A stretch of DNA of 8,168 nucleotides. It comes from Candidatus Aerophobota bacterium. GTDB taxonomy: Bacteria > Aerophobota > Aerophobia > Aerophobales > B3-G15. The DNA lies in contig JACUUP010000065.1 in NCBI GenBank assembly GCA_014859225.1, forward strand, positions 1-8,168, read 5' to 3'. How positions within the stretch are numbered: position 1 is the stretch's first letter; every line of letters begins with the position of its first letter. Positions 31-8,168 of this stretch are shown here, one piece after another. The notes under the pieces are model-generated. The model was not told where the DNA came from. It made no database searches and saw nothing but the letters and a program-made list of their open reading frames with translations. A program made the translations under genes and the position numbers.

Positions 31-52
31 GGTAGCCGCAGGCTTTAGCCTG
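31..52. repeat. Short palindromic repeat remnant overlapping the transketolase stop codon
   Basis: The core CAGGCTTTAGCCTG (39-52) is a perfect inverted repeat: a 5-bp stem with loop TTTA, or 6+6 with a 2-base centre. The left flank reads GTAGCCG, but the right flank (AACC) does not mirror it, so the right arm looks cut off. It resembles the short G+C-rich palindromes scattered between genes in many environmental bacterial genomes; that is recollection, not a search. On the minus strand the TAA stop of transketolase lies inside this core, so the last two or three codons (Ser-Gly-stop) come from the repeat. No T-run follows on the minus strand, so it does not look like an intrinsic terminator. 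Positions 1-30 show nothing else recognisable. Confidence 0.5.
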
Positions 53-2078
53 AACCTTTTTTATCATACAAACTTTTCGCCCTCTTCGCAATATGCTCTG
101 CACATAAGCCAAACACCTTCATGAGCTCCCAGGGTGCTCCAGATTCCCCAAATTTATCCTCAACTCCAACCATATCCATAACAAGAGGTATCTGGTATCT
201 TTTGCCACAGGTTGCAACTCCTGCCACAATGTTTCCAAAACCACCAACCTGGTGCTCCTCTGCTGTTAGGATAATGCCTGTCTCCCCTGCCGCCTTTACA
301 ATAGCACCCTTATCAATTGGCTTGACTGTATGCATATTTATAACCCTTGTTTCAATCCCGAACTCTTCTTTTAAAATGTAGGCTGCTCTCATTGCTTCTG
401 CAACTACAGGTCCGCAGGCAACTATACTTAAATCTTCTTCTTCATTCTCATATTCACGGGAAAGCTTTACTTCAAAAGCCTGAAGGAAATCATCCACCTC
501 ACCTCTGTATCTTATTATATTTGCTATCCCAAACTCATAAGGCGTATCCGGCGTTGTAACCAGGGGAGTTGCCTCCCTTGCATACCTTACCACACAGGGT
601 GCTTGAATATAGGCAATTTTTTTTGTCGCCTTTTCTACCTCCAGCGAATCACAGGGAACAGCAATATGCATGTTAGGTAGATAGTAAGTGTTGCTTATCT
701 CCTCCAGCGCTTGATGGGTTGCCCCATCAGGACCTACTGATATACCACCGTGGGCATCGGCAATTTTTACATTAAAATTATTGTAACAAACAGTTGTCCT
801 GAGCTGGTCCCAGTTTCTTCCGGTAACAAAAACTCCATAGGAGCCGATGAAGGCAATCTTTTTCTCCTTAGCAAGACCTGAGGCAACTAAAGCCATGTTT
901 GCCTCGGCTATCCCTACAGAAAAAAACCTTTGTTTCCTCTCAGGATGATTTTCATAAAATTTGTTCATCCTTATAGAATCTGTAATATCAGCTCCCAGGG
1001 CAACAACTCTTTCATCTTCACCTAATTTTTCCATTGCTCTGCCAAAACCGTTCCTTGTTGCATCCATTGTAACTTTCATTTTCCCGGCTAAGTTCCACCA
1101 GTAGTTTTTGCTAAACTCAGGCATCAAAGAGTTTATTTTCTTCTCCACTTCCTTTTGATAATCCTCAGCAATTTTTAAAAGATAATCCACCTTCTCCTTT
1201 ATAGATTGAGAACCTCCTATATCCTCCAGAGCTTTTTCTAAAGACTCTTTCCCTTTTCTTCCATCCCTGGGAGAGATTCCATGGTAGCCTACTACATTCT
1301 CAGCATAAGATACCCCTTTCCCCTTTACTGTTTTTGCAATTATCACCGTTGGTTTCCCCTTTACTTTCTCGGCATCATCTAAAGCGGCAAGAATCTCTCT
1401 CATATTATGCCCATCAATCTCAACAACATTCCACCCAAACGCCTCCCACTTTTGAGCAAGGGGCTCAAGTGCCATAACTTCCTCTGTTGCACCATCAATC
1501 TGAAGACCATTTCTATCTACGATAGCTACAAGATTGTCCAGTTTGTAGTGGGAAGCGCACATTGCAGCCTCCCAAATGGAGCCCTCGTTTAGCTCTCCAT
1601 CCCCATTTATACAGTATACCCGGTAGTTTTTTCCCTCAATTTTTGCATTAAGTGCAGAGCCCACCGCAACCCCCAGGCCCTGCCCCAGGGAACCGGAGGA
1701 AAGCTCAACGCCTGCAAGTTTCAACCTATTGGGATGACCTTCAAACCCTGACCAGAGTTTCCTTAGCTTTACTACTTCCTCAATGGGGAAATAACCCACC
1801 TCCCCTAAGGCAACATAGAGGGCAGGAGCTTTATGGCCGGTAGACCAGAAGACTCTGTCCCTGTCCTCCCATTCAGGATTTCGCGGGTCATGCCTTATTT
1901 TTTTAAGATAAAGAGCTGCCGCGATATCCATGATAGATAAGGTTCCGCCTGTGTGCCCGGAGTCTGCTGCAGTAAGGGCTACCATATTGTAAGAGCGCAT
2001 TTCTCTTGCCTTTTCCATTAGCTCTTCAATTGTGTAATCTTTGCTTATCTTACCCGTTTTTGAATCCATGATTGGCAT
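45..2078 (-). CDS. tkt: Transketolase, full-length fused form (677 aa)
   Basis: This is a thiamine-diphosphate enzyme that moves two-carbon ketol units between sugar phosphates in the non-oxidative pentose phosphate pathway, in the cytoplasm. Numbering from the ATG at 2078, the N-terminal ThDP-binding domain spans about 1-320. It shows the SGHTGG motif (H42), STGHKAPALY (H82), SSGSLGQGLG and the GDG...N cofactor motif (G159-G161, N190). The pyrimidine-binding and C-terminal domains span about 335-677, with catalytic Glu392 in GIAEAN, the His443 segment HGGISVGPDGATHQ, and the C-terminal EEHQVGGFGN motif. Many bacteria encode these halves as two genes; here they form one chain. About 30 residues (521-550, rich in Glu/Asp) extend the loop between the second and third domains. 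An upstream ATG at 2159 would add 27 hydrophobic residues unlike the family; the strong GGGGAGGT supports 2078. Divergent from the GntR gene. Confident as transketolase; the physiological sugar pair is not shown. Confidence 0.93.
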   Translation of the reverse strand: MPIMDSKTGKISKDYTIEELMEKAREMRSYNMVALTAADSGHTGGTLSIMDIAAALYLKKIRHDPRNPEWEDRDRVFWSTGHKAPALYVALGEVGYFPIEEVVKLRKLWSGFEGHPNRLKLAGVELSSGSLGQGLGVAVGSALNAKIEGKNYRVYCINGDGELNEGSIWEAAMCASHYKLDNLVAIVDRNGLQIDGATEEVMALEPLAQKWEAFGWNVVEIDGHNMREILAALDDAEKVKGKPTVIIAKTVKGKGVSYAENVVGYHGISPRDGRKGKESLEKALEDIGGSQSIKEKVDYLLKIAEDYQKEVEKKINSLMPEFSKNYWWNLAGKMKVTMDATRNGFGRAMEKLGEDERVVALGADITDSIRMNKFYENHPERKQRFFSVGIAEANMALVASGLAKEKKIAFIGSYGVFVTGRNWDQLRTTVCYNNFNVKIADAHGGISVGPDGATHQALEEISNTYYLPNMHIAVPCDSLEVEKATKKIAYIQAPCVVRYAREATPLVTTPDTPYEFGIANIIRYRGEVDDFLQAFEVKLSREYENEEEDLSIVACGPVVAEAMRAAYILKEEFGIETRVINMHTVKPIDKGAIVKAAGETGIILTAEEHQVGGFGNIVAGVATCGKRYQIPLVMDMVGVEDKFGESGAPWELMKVFGLCAEHIAKRAKSLYDKKGSG

Positions 2079-2084
2079 TAAAAG

Positions 2085-2092
2085 ACCTCCCC
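2085..2092 (-). promoter_or_regulatory. Ribosome-binding site deciding the transketolase start
   Basis: On the minus strand GGGGAGGT lies 6 bases before the ATG at 2078. The in-frame ATG at 2159 has no such site, so the shorter protein starting Met-Pro-Ile-Met-Asp is preferred. Confidence 0.85.
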
Positions 2093-2127
2093 ATTTTTTA
2101 TTTATCCTTAATAAACAAAATAGTCCT

Positions 2128-2156
2128 TTGACAAATGTCAGGTTAAATAGTATTAT
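2128..2156 (+). promoter_or_regulatory. Predicted sigma-70-type promoter of the GntR gene
   Basis: A perfect -35 TTGACA (2128-2133), a 17-base spacer and -10 TATTAT (2151-2156, five of six consensus bases) read toward the regulator. Transcription would start near 2163, giving a leader of about 150 bases before the TTG at 2316. The -35 overlaps an inverted repeat (2129-2140). The promoter lies inside the leader of the divergent transketolase transcript. Confidence 0.6.
2129..2140. promoter_or_regulatory. Inverted repeat over the -35 box (possible operator)
   Basis: TGACA-AA-TGTCA is a 12-base inverted repeat with 5-base arms. It covers five of the six -35 bases of the promoter reading toward the GntR gene. 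A regulator bound here would block that promoter, so autoregulation is a natural guess. It differs from the repeat at 2973-2986, so the same protein need not bind both. Chance occurrence in A+T-rich DNA is possible. Confidence 0.3.
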
Positions 2157-2201
2157 CAATTGTTATGAAGAGACTATAAAAGATATATAAGATATATGAA
2201 T

Positions 2202-2315: not shown

Positions 2316-2927
2316 TTGGATAAAACTGACATCTACTCCATTTTAAGAGAGAAAATAGTGCTGGGTGATTACAAACCTGGCCAGATATTGAAAGAAAAAG
2401 AACTGATGCAGGAGTTTAACATAGGAAGGACCCCTCTAAGGGAGCTTTTGATTCGTCTTAATGCAGAAGGACTGGTGGAAATAGTCCCCTACGGTGGAGT
2501 TTATGTCAGCTCTGTCGGATTCCAGGAGCTTGCCAACGTAATAGAGGTGCGAAAACCTCTTTTAAGAATGGTCGGTAGATTAGTAGCTGAGAGAGCAACT
2601 GAAGATGAAATAGAGAAAATGAAAAGCTTTCTCACTGAATTCAAGAATAACTTAAGCGAAAAAGAGTTAATGAAGTTAGATTCTCAATTTCACGACCTTG
2701 TAAATATGGCTACCCATAATCAGATACTTTGTCAAATTTTGCAGAGTTTAAGAGATAGAGTTCTGAGACTCTGGATTTTGCCCAAGAATAAATCGTTTGC
2801 CTACAGTTTTAAAGAAGATTTTCAGAGACTAATTTTTGCTATTGAGAAAAGAGATAAAAAGTTAGCCTCTAATATATTAGCCTCCCATGCAGAATCTTTC
2901 ATAGAGAAAATAAAGGCTCAACTTTAG
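2316..2927 (+). CDS. GntR-family transcriptional regulator, FadR/FCD subfamily (203 aa)
   Basis: Cytoplasmic DNA-binding regulator that responds to a small metabolite. Residues 6-66 form the winged helix-turn-helix: PGQ at 21-23, the KEKELMQEFNIGRTPLREL helices, and the wing at EIVPYGGVYVSS. Residues 72-203 form an all-helical FCD ligand domain. FCD proteins usually bind a metal through one Asp and three His. D122 and H126 (DSQFH) and H191 (ASH) are visible, but the position before the AIEKRD segment that is normally His (as in EHxxI) is Phe169. The metal site is thus probably altered or lost. The gene sits between divergent transketolase and the glycine/serine operon, so a ligand from that metabolism is a reasonable guess, unproven. 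The likely targets are the repeats at 2129-2140 and 2973-2986. No terminator is visible after it, so some readthrough into the aminotransferase operon is possible. Family assignment is firm; ligand unknown. Confidence 0.88.
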   Translation: MDKTDIYSILREKIVLGDYKPGQILKEKELMQEFNIGRTPLRELLIRLNAEGLVEIVPYGGVYVSSVGFQELANVIEVRKPLLRMVGRLVAERATEDEIEKMKSFLTEFKNNLSEKELMKLDSQFHDLVNMATHNQILCQILQSLRDRVLRLWILPKNKSFAYSFKEDFQRLIFAIEKRDKKLASNILASHAESFIEKIKAQL

Positions 2928-2986: not shown

Positions 2987-3017
2987 CTTGAATATCTTTA
3001 ATATATTTTTAAAAAGA

Positions 3018-3021
3018 GAGG
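3018..3021 (+). promoter_or_regulatory. Ribosome-binding site favouring the TTG at 3027
   Basis: GAGG, within GAGAGGGA, lies 5 bases before the in-frame TTG at 3027. The ATG at 3045 has only AAGG directly against it, and the TTG at 2988 sits at the predicted transcription start. 3027 is the best-supported start; 3045 remains possible. Confidence 0.5.
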
Positions 3022-3026
3022 GAAAA

Positions 3027-4214
3027 TTGCAAAAAGCAAAAAGGATGAAAAGGTTAGGCACCGAGACCGCTTTTGAAGTTTTAGTCAGGGTAGATGAGTT
3101 AAGACGAAAAGGCAGGGATATTGTAAGTTTTTGTATCGGAGAGCCTGATTTTGACACCCCGCAGAATATTAAGAAAGCTGCAGTAGATGCACTGGAAGAA
3201 GGGCATACTCACTATTCTCCCTCAGCTGGTATTCTTCCCTTGAGGGAAGCTATTTCCCGCTACATCTCTAAAACAAGAGCTATAGAAGTTGACCCGGAAG
3301 AGGTAGTAGTTACTCCCGGAGCAAAACCAATCATTGCCTACAGCATTCTTGCCTGTGTTAACAAAGAAGATGAGGTCATATACCCAAGTCCAGGTTTTCC
3401 AATTTATGAGTCATTTATAAATTTTGTGGGAGCAAAACCCATCCCACTGCCTCTGCTTGAAGAAAAGGAGTTTAGCTTTGATGCTGATGAGCTGGAGAAA
3501 AAAATAACAGATAAAACAAGGATGATGATTATCAATTCACCGCACAATCCCACAGGAGGCACTCTCACTCAAAATGACCTTGAAAAAATTGCTGAAATAG
3601 TAAAAGATAAGGATATCTGGATTGTATCAGATGAGGTCTACTCTCAGATTATATATGAGGAGAAGTTCAAGAGTATAGCCTCTCTTCCAGGAATGAAGGA
3701 TAGGACAATTCTCATAGATGGTTTTTCCAAAACCTATGCCATGACAGGCTGGAGACTGGGATATGGGGTGATGAGAAAAGAGTTGGCGCAAGACATCACC
3801 AGAATTCAAACCAATGTGAACTCCTGCACAAACACCTTTATCCAGCATGCAGGAGCTGTTGGCCTTGAAGGACCACAGGATGCTTCAGTAGCTATGATAA
3901 AGGAATTTAAAGAAAGGCGAGATATCATCTGGGAAGGATTAAACGAGATTAAAGGAATAAAATGTCTCAAACCCAGGGGAGCTTTTTACATATATCCAAA
4001 TGTAACCGAGGTTTGTCAGAAACTTAATCTTGAGGATTCTAAAGAACTTCAGGAATACCTGCTTTACCAGGCAGGCGTGGCAGTCCTTGGTAGAGAGTGT
4101 TTTGGAAAAAAATGCCAGGGAGAAAAAGAGGAATATATAAGATTATCCTACGCCACTTCCAGGGAAAATATATCAGAGGGGCTTAAAAGGATTAAAAAGG
4201 CAGTTGAAAAATAA
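3027..4214 (+). CDS. PLP-dependent class I/II aminotransferase (395 aa)
   Basis: Fold-type I aminotransferase that moves an amino group between an amino acid and a 2-oxo acid, in the cytoplasm. Numbered from the TTG at 3027, it shows the N-terminal RLGTETAFE and IGEPDFDTP segments, Asn174 in NSPHNPTGG, Asp202 and Tyr205 in SDEVYSQ, the PLP lysine K235 in FSKTYAMTGWRLGYG, and Arg372 in YIRLSYATS, which binds the substrate carboxylate. The length is normal for the AspC-like group. It is the first gene of an operon with SHMT-GcvT, gcvH and gcvPA. A role with glycine, serine or alanine (for example glyoxylate to glycine) fits that context, but aspartate or aromatic substrates are equally allowed by sequence. 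The predicted -10 operator suggests control by the GntR neighbour. It ends with TAA in the same frame as the next gene, with 9 bases between stop and ATG. Family certain, substrate not. Confidence 0.9.
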   Translation: MQKAKRMKRLGTETAFEVLVRVDELRRKGRDIVSFCIGEPDFDTPQNIKKAAVDALEEGHTHYSPSAGILPLREAISRYISKTRAIEVDPEEVVVTPGAKPIIAYSILACVNKEDEVIYPSPGFPIYESFINFVGAKPIPLPLLEEKEFSFDADELEKKITDKTRMMIINSPHNPTGGTLTQNDLEKIAEIVKDKDIWIVSDEVYSQIIYEEKFKSIASLPGMKDRTILIDGFSKTYAMTGWRLGYGVMRKELAQDITRIQTNVNSCTNTFIQHAGAVGLEGPQDASVAMIKEFKERRDIIWEGLNEIKGIKCLKPRGAFYIYPNVTEVCQKLNLEDSKELQEYLLYQAGVAVLGRECFGKKCQGEKEEYIRLSYATSRENISEGLKRIKKAVEK

Positions 4215-4223
4215 TTAAATCAA

Positions 4224-5693
4224 ATGAAGGAAAAAAAAGAGCTTCTACATAAAAAAATATCAAGAAAGAGTAGACACTATTCATATTACCTGAAAGCACC
4301 GCTTTCTCAGGTAGACCAGGATACGCACCATATTATCCAACTTGAAAAGGCGCGACAGATAGAAAAAATTATCCTTATACCATCAGAGAGTATCTGTCCT
4401 GGACCTGTCCAGGAGGCTCTATCATCTCCCTTTGGTAACCTCTACGCCGAAGGGTATCCCTCTCGAAGAATGAGCGAGGAAAACAATGAGGAGCTTCTGC
4501 TTGATTTTGACCACCAGCTTTCTCACTACAGGCGCTACTCTGATAGACGATTTTACAAGGGAGTTGAATTTGCTGATTTTATTGAATCTCTTGCCCAAAG
4601 AAGAGTGGCTAACTTATTTGCCACAGATAAGATAAGTGCAGATAAGATTTTCGCCAATGTTCAACCCTTATCAGGAGCTGCAGCAAACAACTGTGTTTAT
4701 GCAGCTTTTCTTAAACCCGGCGATACCATTATGGGTATGTCCTTATCCCACGGGGGACATCTTACTCACGGTAGTGAATTTAACCGCTCGGGAAAATACT
4801 ACCAGGTTATCCCCTATGAGGCAGAGCCTGCAGGGGGAAAGCTCAACTACGACGCTATAAAAGAGCTGGCTCTTCGCCACAGGCCAAAAATTATAATTGC
4901 AGGTTACAGTGCGTACCCCTGGAGCGTTGACTGGAAAAAATTTAGAGAAATTACCGATGCCACAGGAGCTCTCCTTTTTGCTGATATTGCCCATGTTGCA
5001 GGATTGATTGTGGCTGGAGTATATCCAAATCCGGTAGGCTTCGCTGATGTTATAACTTTCACCACCCACAAAACTCTTTGCGGTCCCCGCGGGGCAGTTA
5101 TTTTAACCACGGATGAAGAAAAGGCTAACTTAATAGATAATGCTGTTTTTCCGGGAGAACAGGGAGGACCTCACATAAATAAAATGGCAGCCATGGCGGT
5201 TGCATTTAAGATTGCAAAAACAGAGGAGTTTAGAAAACTTCAGGAAAAAATTGTGGAAAATGCCAAAGTTCTATCTTCATCGCTGGCAAAAAGAGGCCTT
5301 AAAATAGCCTATGGAGGAACTGATACCCACCTTTTACTGGTTGACTTAAATGCTATTGAAACAAAGACAGGCTTTCCTCTAAAAGGAGAGATAGCCGCTC
5401 GTATCCTTGATATTTGCGATATAGTAGTTAATAAAAACACTATCCCCAAAGATGAAAGTGCTGCTGAGGCAAGCGGTATAAGGCTCGGAACCCCCTGGGT
5501 TACCCAGCGAGGATTCGAGAAAAAGGACATGGAAAAAATAGCAGAGCTTATTCATAAGGTCCTGGTTAATATTTACCCCTTTACCTACAGGGGAATGACT
5601 CGAGACCTTCCCCGGGGAAAAATAAAGCTTGATGTAGTTGAAAAGGTAAAAGATGAGCTGAAAGAGTTAATCCAGAAAAAAGAACGTGGCGTC
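4224..5693 (+). other. SHMT domain of the fusion, long form with an insertion
   Basis: Residues 1-490. Compared with classical SHMT, where the YAEGYPGKR motif runs straight into YYGG, this protein has about 25 extra residues (83-108: acidic EENNEE, then a Tyr/Arg-rich stretch) before FYKGVEFADF. This region normally sits at the active-site mouth and dimer interface. All main PLP residues remain (S176, H177, D254, H257, K283), so activity is expected. I recall similar long forms in some deep-branching bacteria, but cannot check here. Confidence 0.8.
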
Positions 5694-7577
5694 CAGAAGG
5701 GGAAAAAAGTATTTGACCTTGCTTTTTCTGGCAAAGCCTCTGGCACAGTTGAGAAATTACATGAGGGCAATATGGGGCTTTTAAAGATAACTGGAGAAAG
5801 AGCAAAAGCTTTCCTGCAGGAGGTATTAACTGCCAATATTGCCGACCTTAAAGTGGGTGATACCATCTCCTCCTTTCTCCTGGATGCCGAAGGAAGACTT
5901 ATTGATGATGTATCAATCCTTCATCTACCCTCTGATGATAAGGGAAGGGCTTGTTACCTACTTTCAACCACCCTTTCTCAAACTCAAAAAGTGAAGTTCT
6001 GGCTGGAAGCTTTATCAGATGGATATATCATTTTTGACCCTCAGGATATATTTGCCAAAATCCAGGGACCTGTAGTAGTGGAAAATTTGACAGAGAGAAA
6101 AAAGGAAATTTTGCAGAGATTAAAAAAATCTTTAAAAGTCAATCTAAAAGATTTTAAGTATAAAGAATGCTCTCGTTTAAATGAAAACCTTCCTTCTGCT
6201 GAAGAGGAAAAACAGCAAATTGAGGGCTTATATCTGTATAAAAAATTCCCCTCCTGCTTTGACTTATCCAAGCCTTACTTTGTTGGACAGAAGCTATTTA
6301 TTCAAAATGGTGTTTCTTCCGGGGCAAAGAAAGAGGAGTTTTTCTACCGGGAGGAGGAAAAGGTTAAAAAATCTTTTTTACATAATGAGCATTTAAAATT
6401 GGGAGCAAAATTTACCCGGTTTTCCGGGTGGGAAATGCCCCTTTATTATACAAGTATTGGCGAAGAACACCGAGCAGTAAGACAGACAGCAGGGCTTTTT
6501 GATGTGAGTCATATGGGGCTCCTGGAAGTCAGAGGGGAAGATGCTGCTGATTTCCTGGATACAGTTTGCACCAATTATATTAGATGGATAAGAGCGGGTC
6601 AGTGTCAGTATAGCTTCCTTCTTGACCCTGACGGAAATGTGATAGACGATATTATGGTTTATTGCCAGGAAAAAGACAGGTACCTGATTGTATGCAACGC
6701 TGCCAATCAGGGAAAAGTTTTCGCCTGGTTTGAAGCAGTCAACTCTAAAGGCTATCTTATAGACAAAGATTATCCAGTAAGAGAGGTTAAAGATGGGGTA
6801 GAGATTAAAAGTTTAAAGGATACATCAGCAGGTAAGATGCAAAAAATAGACATAGCTTTCCAGGGACCTTTATCCATTTTAATTCTGAGAAAATTTGTAG
6901 ATGATGAAAAAATAAAAGATAAAATCCAAAGATTGCAGAAAAACGAATTTATAGAGGGAAAAATAGCTGGAAAGGATATGATAATCTCCCGCACAGGTTA
7001 TACTGGAGAGGATACAGGCTATGAGCTTTACCTTCATCCGGAGGATGCCCCATTTATCTGGGACCTGATTCTAAAAAAGGGTAAGGAGTTTAAAGTGAAA
7101 CCCTGTGGTCTGGGAGCAAGAGATTCAACGAGAATTGAAGCAGGACTTCCCCTATATGGACATGAGCTTGCGGGAAAATACAAAATTAATCCCATTGAAG
7201 CAGGTTATGGAGCCTTTGTTAAATTCCACAAAGCCTTTTTCGTTGGACGAGAAGCTCTGCTGAAAAAAGAGAAAAAAAGAGAAAAGAAAATTATAAGGTT
7301 TAAGTTAAAATCAAGCTACGGCAGAATGGTAAGAGAGGATGATGTGGTAGTTGATAAAAGGGGAAGGTATGTGGGAAAAGTTACAAGTTGCGCTTTAACA
7401 GGCGATTCCCAGGTTGGACTTGCTTATGTTGACGAGAAAATCCAGGAAGGGGAGGAGATTGCCATATTTCCCCTTTCCCGGGGAAGATTTGAGGAAAAAC
7501 CTGTGGGAGATTTGGAGGAAGGAGATAGAACATCCCTTCCCCAGAAAGCTATTATCCTGCCCCGTTTCCCACAATGA
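4224..7577 (+). CDS. glyA-gcvT: Fusion: serine hydroxymethyltransferase + GcvT-like module + aminomethyltransferase (1117 aa)
   Basis: One chain carries two folate enzymes. SHMT (about 1-485) interconverts serine + THF and glycine + 5,10-methylene-THF. It shows E55 (PSES), YAEGYP (74-79), SHGGHLTHGS (176-185), D254/H257 (DIAH), PLP lysine K283 (THKTLCGPRG) and R420 (SGIRLGTPW). GcvT (about 717-1110) releases NH3 and methylene-THF from the aminomethyl group on GcvH. It shows LGAKFTRFSGWEMPLYY, FDVSHMG (759-765), IDD (807-809, containing the expected catalytic Asp), SRTGYTGED (922-930), GLGARDSTR and FVGREAL. Between them, 496-695 is a shortened second GcvT-like module. Typical SHMT is about 420 aa and GcvT about 365 aa, so the chain is two whole enzymes plus extra. 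The ATG at 4224 has no Shine-Dalgarno sequence, no alternative start exists before the SHMT core, and the preceding stop is in the same frame, so translational coupling is likely. No signal peptide or membrane segment. The reading frame is unbroken. Confidence 0.92.
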   Translation: MKEKKELLHKKISRKSRHYSYYLKAPLSQVDQDTHHIIQLEKARQIEKIILIPSESICPGPVQEALSSPFGNLYAEGYPSRRMSEENNEELLLDFDHQLSHYRRYSDRRFYKGVEFADFIESLAQRRVANLFATDKISADKIFANVQPLSGAAANNCVYAAFLKPGDTIMGMSLSHGGHLTHGSEFNRSGKYYQVIPYEAEPAGGKLNYDAIKELALRHRPKIIIAGYSAYPWSVDWKKFREITDATGALLFADIAHVAGLIVAGVYPNPVGFADVITFTTHKTLCGPRGAVILTTDEEKANLIDNAVFPGEQGGPHINKMAAMAVAFKIAKTEEFRKLQEKIVENAKVLSSSLAKRGLKIAYGGTDTHLLLVDLNAIETKTGFPLKGEIAARILDICDIVVNKNTIPKDESAAEASGIRLGTPWVTQRGFEKKDMEKIAELIHKVLVNIYPFTYRGMTRDLPRGKIKLDVVEKVKDELKELIQKKERGVQKGKKVFDLAFSGKASGTVEKLHEGNMGLLKITGERAKAFLQEVLTANIADLKVGDTISSFLLDAEGRLIDDVSILHLPSDDKGRACYLLSTTLSQTQKVKFWLEALSDGYIIFDPQDIFAKIQGPVVVENLTERKKEILQRLKKSLKVNLKDFKYKECSRLNENLPSAEEEKQQIEGLYLYKKFPSCFDLSKPYFVGQKLFIQNGVSSGAKKEEFFYREEEKVKKSFLHNEHLKLGAKFTRFSGWEMPLYYTSIGEEHRAVRQTAGLFDVSHMGLLEVRGEDAADFLDTVCTNYIRWIRAGQCQYSFLLDPDGNVIDDIMVYCQEKDRYLIVCNAANQGKVFAWFEAVNSKGYLIDKDYPVREVKDGVEIKSLKDTSAGKMQKIDIAFQGPLSILILRKFVDDEKIKDKIQRLQKNEFIEGKIAGKDMIISRTGYTGEDTGYELYLHPEDAPFIWDLILKKGKEFKVKPCGLGARDSTRIEAGLPLYGHELAGKYKINPIEAGYGAFVKFHKAFFVGREALLKKEKKREKKIIRFKLKSSYGRMVREDDVVVDKRGRYVGKVTSCALTGDSQVGLAYVDEKIQEGEEIAIFPLSRGRFEEKPVGDLEEGDRTSLPQKAIILPRFPQ
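5709..6308 (+). other. Shortened, probably non-catalytic GcvT-like module
   Basis: Residues about 496-695. It aligns by eye with the full GcvT further on: MGLLKITG (517) with MGLLEVRG (764), SFLLDAEGRLIDD (ending 562) with SFLLDPDGNVIDD (ending 809), QGP (614) with QGP (880), and PYFVGQKLF (684) with AFFVGREAL (1004). It lacks the N-terminal GWEMPLYY and HRAVR segment, the SRTGYTGED and GLGARDSTR motifs, and the C-terminal barrel. QGP to FVG is about 54 residues shorter. The IDD pair survives. It may be a scaffold, linker or docking surface, or a decayed duplicate. Confidence 0.7.
6372..7553 (+). other. Full-length GcvT domain of the fusion
   Basis: Residues about 717-1110, matching the usual GcvT length. 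The start-of-family motif (HLKLGAKF...GWEMPLYY) follows a short charged linker (702-716, rich in Glu/Lys), as expected for a free-standing enzyme attached to what precedes it. All the main folate-site and catalytic motifs are present, so this is the active T-protein of the operon. Confidence 0.85.
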
Positions 7578-7616
7578 CCTCTTTCTCCTCCCCCTTGAGG
7601 GGGGAGGATTGAAGGT
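7577..7616. repeat. Palindromic intergenic element between the glyA-gcvT fusion and gcvH
   Basis: TCCTCCCCC (7586-7594) pairs perfectly with GGGGGAGGA (7600-7608) across loop TTGAG. ACCT (7577-7580) and AGGT (7613-7616) can extend the stem beyond an internal loop. No T-run follows, so it is not a standard terminator, and gcvH starts 24 bases later. Similar CTCCCC-TTGA-GGGGAG elements are, as I recall, dispersed repeats in many environmental bacterial genomes. In mRNA the hairpin could protect the 3' end of the long upstream message and set different levels of T-protein and H-protein. Confidence 0.6.
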
Positions 7617-7639: not shown

Positions 7640-8020
7640 ATGTACCCTGATAACTTAAAATACACCAGGACGCATGAGTGGATAAGAATTGAGGGAGATG
7701 TTGGAACTGTGGGAATTACAGATTTTGCGGTAGAAAAACTTACTGACCTTGTATATATAGAGCTTCCTTCAAAAGGAGAAAAACTAACTCAGGGTTCCTC
7801 TTTTGGCATTGTAGAGTCAGTTAAAGCTGTTTCAGATTTAAACTCCCCTGTATCCGGTGAGGTGATAGCGGTTCACGAGGAGCTATCCCAGAAAATTGAT
7901 TTAATAAACAAGGACCCTTATGGTGAAGGTTGGATGATTAAAGTTAAAATAGAAAACCCAGAAGAGTTAAATGGCTTAGGAGATTATAAAGAGTATGGAC
8001 AATGGGTCAGGGAAAAATAG
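7640..8020 (+). CDS. gcvH: Glycine cleavage system H protein (126 aa)
   Basis: Small lipoyl carrier that shuttles the aminomethyl group from P-protein to T-protein and returns reducing equivalents to dihydrolipoyl dehydrogenase. The family opening is clear (YTRTHEWIRIEG, 8-19), followed by VGITDFAVEKL, and the lipoylation site is K62 in ESVKAVSDLNSPVSGEV. The C-terminal segment NKDPYGEGWMIKV is also typical. Length is normal. The start is supported by GGAG at 7629-7632, 7 bases before the ATG. It lies between its two partner enzymes, T (in the fusion) and P (gcvPA), consistent with one operon. No lipoate ligase or dihydrolipoyl dehydrogenase gene is visible in the window. Confidence 0.96.
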   Translation: MYPDNLKYTRTHEWIRIEGDVGTVGITDFAVEKLTDLVYIELPSKGEKLTQGSSFGIVESVKAVSDLNSPVSGEVIAVHEELSQKIDLINKDPYGEGWMIKVKIENPEELNGLGDYKEYGQWVREK

Positions 8021-8040: not shown

Positions 8041-8168
8041 ATGAATCTACCATACATACCACATACAAAAGAGGACCGCAGAAAGATGCTAACAGAGATA
8101 GGTGTAGAATCAGTTAATGAACTAATCACCGTCCCTGAGGAAATTCGTTTATCCTCACCCGTAAATAT
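8041..8168 (+). CDS. gcvPA: Glycine dehydrogenase (decarboxylating) subunit 1, 5' end only
   Basis: Only the first 42 codons lie in the window; the reading frame runs off the right edge. The opening MNLPYIPHTKEDRRKMLTEI, then GVESVNELI and VPEEIRL, matches the conserved N-terminus of the split P-protein alpha subunit, whose PLP-bearing partner is GcvPB. P-protein decarboxylates glycine and loads the aminomethyl group on the lipoyl arm of GcvH. GGAAG at 8032-8036 precedes the ATG, 20 bases after the gcvH stop, so it is very likely co-transcribed. A gcvPB gene is expected just beyond the window. Confidence 0.88.
   Translation, partial: MNLPYIPHTKEDRRKMLTEIGVESVNELITVPEEIRLSSPVN

Follow-up and report, generated by a model that had tools for sequence, protein, structure and literature searches.

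The window, namely the whole stretch of 8,168 nucleotides that was analyzed, is an entire contig and carries the following genes and features.

45..2159, minus strand: transketolase, divergently oriented (PF00456 and others; same neighbourhood in relatives)
2316..2927, plus strand: GntR/FCD regulator (PF00392, PF07729; same neighbour in G016)
2988..4214, plus strand: class I/II aminotransferase directly upstream of the fusion (PF00155; conserved neighbour in Aerophobetes)
4224..7577, plus strand: SHMT-(GcvT remnant)-GcvT fusion gene, 1117 aa (single open frame; full-length orthologues with the same architecture)
4224..5708, plus strand: SHMT module, residues 1-495 (PF00464, NF000586; residue map against E. 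coli GlyA)
5745..6149, plus strand: remnant of a first GcvT copy, residues 508-642 (profile match E 1.3e-19; tree; dN/dS 0.14)
6150..6338, plus strand: linker, residues 643-705 (fastest-changing part of the fusion)
6339..7574, plus strand: complete GcvT (T-protein) module, residues 706-1117 (PF01571, NF001567 and TIGR00528 above cut-off; alignment)
7587..7607, plus strand: near-perfect inverted repeat CCTCCCCCTTGAGGGGGGAGG between the fusion and gcvH (sequence, shuffles)
7640..8020, plus strand: gcvH, lipoyl carrier H-protein (PF01597, TIGR00527 over cut-off)
8041..8168, plus strand: start of gcvPA, truncated at 8168 where the contig ends (MNLPYIPHTKEDRRKML..., matching L042 GcvPA)

The fusion gene thus lies beside gcvH and gcvPA, in agreement with a preliminary description of this DNA. 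The downstream order gcvH-gcvPA-gcvPB is found in G016, G003, G014, G004, and G009, and the Aerophobetes neighbourhood consists of transketolase, aminotransferase, fusion, gcvH, gcvPA, and gcvPB, with a lipoate-ligase-like gene frequently present as well. The fusion is not adjacent to gcvH and gcvP in the majority of the Chloroflexota examined. An aminotransferase of a different subfamily adjoins it in several Chloroflexota (L092, L093, L104-L108, L110). The aminotransferase beside the fusion, in Aerophobetes as in these Chloroflexota, possibly provides a link to glyoxylate/glycine or to serine. Note that, from comparison with relatives, the aminotransferase in the window may start at 3027. 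The inverted repeat at 7587-7607 exceeds chance expectation as judged by shuffles, is absent from the other fusion loci examined, and is possibly an attenuator or a small repeat. A search of Rfam gave no match, hence no known glycine riboswitch was found, and the counts of promoters and terminators were close to chance.

The first 495 residues of the fusion protein score 454.8 bits against NF000586 (cut-off 335). The Schiff-base lysine, Lys283, is retained in the motif TTHKT, and Glu76, Tyr111, His179, Asp254, His257, and Arg420 correspond to E57, Y65, H126, D200, H203, and R363, respectively, of E. coli GlyA. Indeed, the PLP and substrate residues checked are near-invariant, being kept in 43-44 of the 44 aligned fused proteins. 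With its catalytic and PLP residues present, this module is assigned as an SHMT and is predicted to convert serine to glycine with THF. The notable change among the residues checked is at S99 of GlyA, which is alanine in most fused SHMTs. In addition, an insertion of ~27 residues follows the sequence YAEGYP, and together these two differences could alter the kinetics.

The C-terminal module scores 291.6 bits against TIGR00528 (cut-off 235.85) and retains the VIDD (with its Asp pair), GYTGE, and GLGARD motifs. Relative to E. coli GcvT it contains an internal insertion of ~20 residues and a longer C-terminus. Both by motifs and by model scores this module is a GcvT, and transfer of the aminomethyl group from the lipoyl H-protein is predicted. 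The key motifs of SHMT and GcvT do therefore reside in one protein, as had been claimed from the first inspection, and the exceptions among the GlyA positions examined are S99 to Ala and Y64 to Phe.

The frame itself opens with an ATG at 4224, closes with a stop codon at 7575-7577, and encodes 1117 residues with no internal stops, exactly as first described; the probability of an open run of this length arising by chance is ~2e-32 at 41% GC. The window is a short contig from a fragmented assembly, which might raise the suspicion that two separate genes were joined by an assembly or frameshift artefact. Against this, the same architecture occurs in many independent genomes, some of whose chromosomes are represented by one multi-megabase contig, and the coding sequence displays purifying selection at the codon level. 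Another Aerophobetes genome, moreover, carries an orthologue of identical length (1117 residues). The orthologues refute an artefact, the probability of which is considered negligible. The SHMT part of L005, a record labeled Candidatus Aerophobetes, is 77% identical to that of the window fusion, and the host is accordingly taken to be a member of the Aerophobetes.

The preliminary description had envisaged a protein of two domains. That it is a true fusion stands, but a third, GcvT-derived module sits between the two enzymes. In Pfam the fusion protein matches SHMT with 424 bits and GCV_T with 300 bits, and the GCV_T match is split over two stretches. With a profile built from fused GcvTs, residues 508-642 were recognized as covering profile positions 57-171 of 414. 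Neither the GYTGE nor the GARD segment is present in the middle copy of the window, and a complete folate domain is likewise missing; accordingly, the copy is classed by sequence as a remnant rather than as a GcvT, and catalysis by it is very improbable. In a structure prediction from a three-row alignment, which is of low confidence (mean pLDDT 44.8), its strands and helices locally follow an order similar to that in the corresponding stretch of the GcvT module. The linker that follows is 57% identical to that of G016, versus 68-79% for the modules.

The extent of erosion varies. Most of the other Aerophobetes and a single Chloroflexota genome, G037, have a middle copy of ~310 residues (E ~1e-68 to 1e-80) that is nearly complete apart from the C-terminal barrel. 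The copy is of intermediate length in two Chloroflexota and is reduced to ~100-150 residues in the window, in its nearest relative G016, and in most Chloroflexota. Where dS is unsaturated, the dN/dS values are 0.09-0.29 for the middle copy, 0.05-0.24 for the SHMT module, and 0.06-0.18 for the GcvT module.

The search for homologues covered 17 genomes of Aerophobetes, 400 of Chloroflexota, and 398 of Pseudomonadota. GcvT matches were found in 12 of the 17 Aerophobetes genomes, and each one long enough to judge sits in an SHMT fusion frame (in G002 and G011 contig ends truncate them); the 17 genomes yielded no canonical GcvT as a separate gene. The Chloroflexota carriers number 77 of 400, with a single frame of at least ~1040 residues in 65 of them. 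No match at E<=1e-120 was obtained among the 398 Pseudomonadota, in a search that had no internal positive control, and no relatives of the fusion were found among viral contigs. On the sequence evidence, the SHMT-GcvT fusion is genuine and widespread across two bacterial phyla. Two Chloroflexota genomes each contain two differing copies (L083/L084 in G210 and L089/L090 in G029). A further Chloroflexota frame, L097 5992-10254, begins with ~330 extra residues that lack a Pfam match and may reflect a wrong start.

The distribution of free GcvTs among the carriers bears on whether both halves of the protein function. Of the 77 Chloroflexota carriers, 72 encode SHMT solely at the fused or split locus, and a canonical free GcvT (394-431 bits) occurs in only five, namely G134, G227, G123, G171, and G259. 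These five represent at least two lineages in the SHMT tree, G134 standing apart from the other four. The fusion frame of G259 runs off its contig. In the other four the motifs of the fused GcvT are partly lost (L085, L094, L091, and L095 for G134, G227, G123, and G171, respectively), with GARD reading LATE, EAYR, RAYR, and QAFR in the same order. The fused GcvT thus looks intact where it is the sole copy and decayed where it coexists with a free one. This comparison, from four readable cases in two lineages, argues that the fused GcvT ordinarily does the work of the T-protein. Such losses might also be expected if just one half of the fusion were active and the other were a passive leftover. 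The four Chloroflexota concerned, however, have a canonical free GcvT, whereas the window genome has no GcvT besides the fused one, and that one is intact; an inactive half is regarded as highly improbable. The window genome does hold a second, stand-alone SHMT, such that the fused SHMT is not proven to be essential there.

Taken together, these data argue that the SHMT and C-terminal GcvT modules are almost certainly both working enzymes, and that the protein is very probably a bifunctional SHMT/T-protein with a non-catalytic remnant in its middle. The N-terminal half would interconvert serine plus THF and glycine plus methylene-THF, and the C-terminal half would serve as the T-protein of the glycine cleavage system, acting with the adjacently encoded H and P proteins. 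Since THF and 5,10-methylene-THF are common to both halves, the fusion would tie glycine cleavage or synthesis to the formation or use of serine. The net direction is probably reversible and set by supply, and the local concentration of folate would be higher.

Phylogenetic trees provide an outline of how the protein arose. The fused SHMTs constitute one clade, separate from the stand-alone SHMTs of Aerophobetes and Chloroflexota (support 100/98). Four rows within that clade of the first tree had been labeled as stand-alone (L140-L143), but each starts or stops at, or close to, the edge of a contig, and they are therefore read as broken fusion halves. In the GcvT tree both fused copies group together (99/97) to the exclusion of the sampled stand-alone GcvTs, the sole exception being L121, which comes from a genome with a split fusion. 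All seven of the long first copies group together (100/100). Because the fused SHMTs fall in one clade and the two GcvT copies fall together, the ancestor was probably SHMT-GcvT-GcvT, the first GcvT then having been eroded repeatedly. Given the few stand-alone GcvTs in the tree and the long branches of the first copies, this history is a supported inference rather than proof.

Six Chloroflexota genomes (G055, G170, G280, G322, G343, and G367; rows L101, L148, L149, L150, L151, and L152) contain separate SHMT and GcvT genes. Their SHMTs comprise one clade (100/99) nested within the fused group and sister to a fused protein, and thus the gene was split a single time. Five of these genomes visibly keep the remnant on the SHMT gene, which ends just past it; none was detected on that of G367. 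This retention suggests that the SHMT half is what the remnant serves and that the tether to GcvT is expendable. The middle module would represent a non-catalytic relic of a duplicated GcvT, retained within the SHMT half in a structural or docking capacity.

A more elaborate role can be envisioned, in which the fusion channels methylene-THF directly from the SHMT to the GcvT active site or back, with the middle module guiding the transfer. The folate intermediate is common to both enzymes, the remnant is conserved, under selection, and stays with the SHMT after fission, and the apparent lack of fhs and folD in the window genome would leave fewer other routes to methylene-THF. Yet one clade has split the gene, with the two parts on different contigs in two genomes, and tethering is thus dispensable there; the linker is variable, and the low-confidence structure model (mean pLDDT 44.8) lends no support to proximity of the active sites. 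Direct channelling is consequently judged unlikely. It is unlikely, too, that the eroded copy acts as a folate-handling or docking adaptor, non-catalytic in itself, and guides either methylene-THF or the H-protein between the active sites of SHMT and GcvT. If it did, a decayed duplicate would have been turned into a relay within a bifunctional one-carbon enzyme.

The preliminary description had further proposed that the locus, run in reverse, forms the core of the reductive glycine route, and in its strongest form this would make the fusion a specialized device for producing serine from formate and CO2. All of the reactions are reversible in principle, and formate-THF ligase (Fhs) is present in 8 of the 12 fusion-bearing Aerophobetes. 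Its frequency is, however, similar in relatives that lack the fusion (4 of 5); neither Fhs nor FolD was found in the window genome, which is 91% complete, and SerA (phosphoglycerate dehydrogenase) is present in it. The two absent genes are neighbours in relatives, for example on contig C114 of G011, and hence a single assembly gap could explain both absences. Fhs and FolD also went undetected in G016, G006, and G009, possibly through a gap and possibly through true loss. That the fusion is a specialized part of this route is considered very unlikely. The data do not support a dedicated reductive glycine route, and a reversible coupling of glycine and serine metabolism is the modest reading.

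A full-text literature search, mainly of open-access papers, revealed no description of a natural SHMT-GcvT fusion, and the protein is apparently an undescribed, albeit widespread, variant of known enzymes; an architecture so common must be visible in public databases. It offers a ready test for the sharing of folate within one chain by glycine cleavage and serine synthesis, a question that bears on photorespiration and on the engineered assimilation of formate and CO2. Evolution has provided natural controls as well, in the form of middle copies that are full-length or eroded, a single clade with the gene split, and lineages in which a free GcvT accompanies a decayed fused GcvT.

With respect to known systems, the fused SHMT has the same PLP, catalytic, and folate residues, as far as they were checked, as GlyA (PF00464). 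It differs in the 27-residue insertion and S99 substitution, in a C-terminal extension, in its attachment to GcvT modules, and in belonging to a separate clade. Likewise, the C-terminal module shares VIDD, GYTGE, and GLGARD with GcvT (PF01571) and is set apart by its internal insertion, its longer C-terminus, the fusion, and its grouping with the eroded first copy. In plant mitochondria, GDC and SHMT couple glycine cleavage to serine formation through methylene-THF; the coupling is the same, but the enzymes are separate polypeptides there and one chain here. The fusion protein also matches TIGR01372. In sarcosine and dimethylglycine dehydrogenases, a GcvT-like domain is fused to an FAD oxidase that hands over the one-carbon unit. 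The pairing of a GcvT-like domain with a one-carbon donor enzyme is thus alike in both cases, the partner being an FAD oxidase in the dehydrogenases and an SHMT in the fusion.
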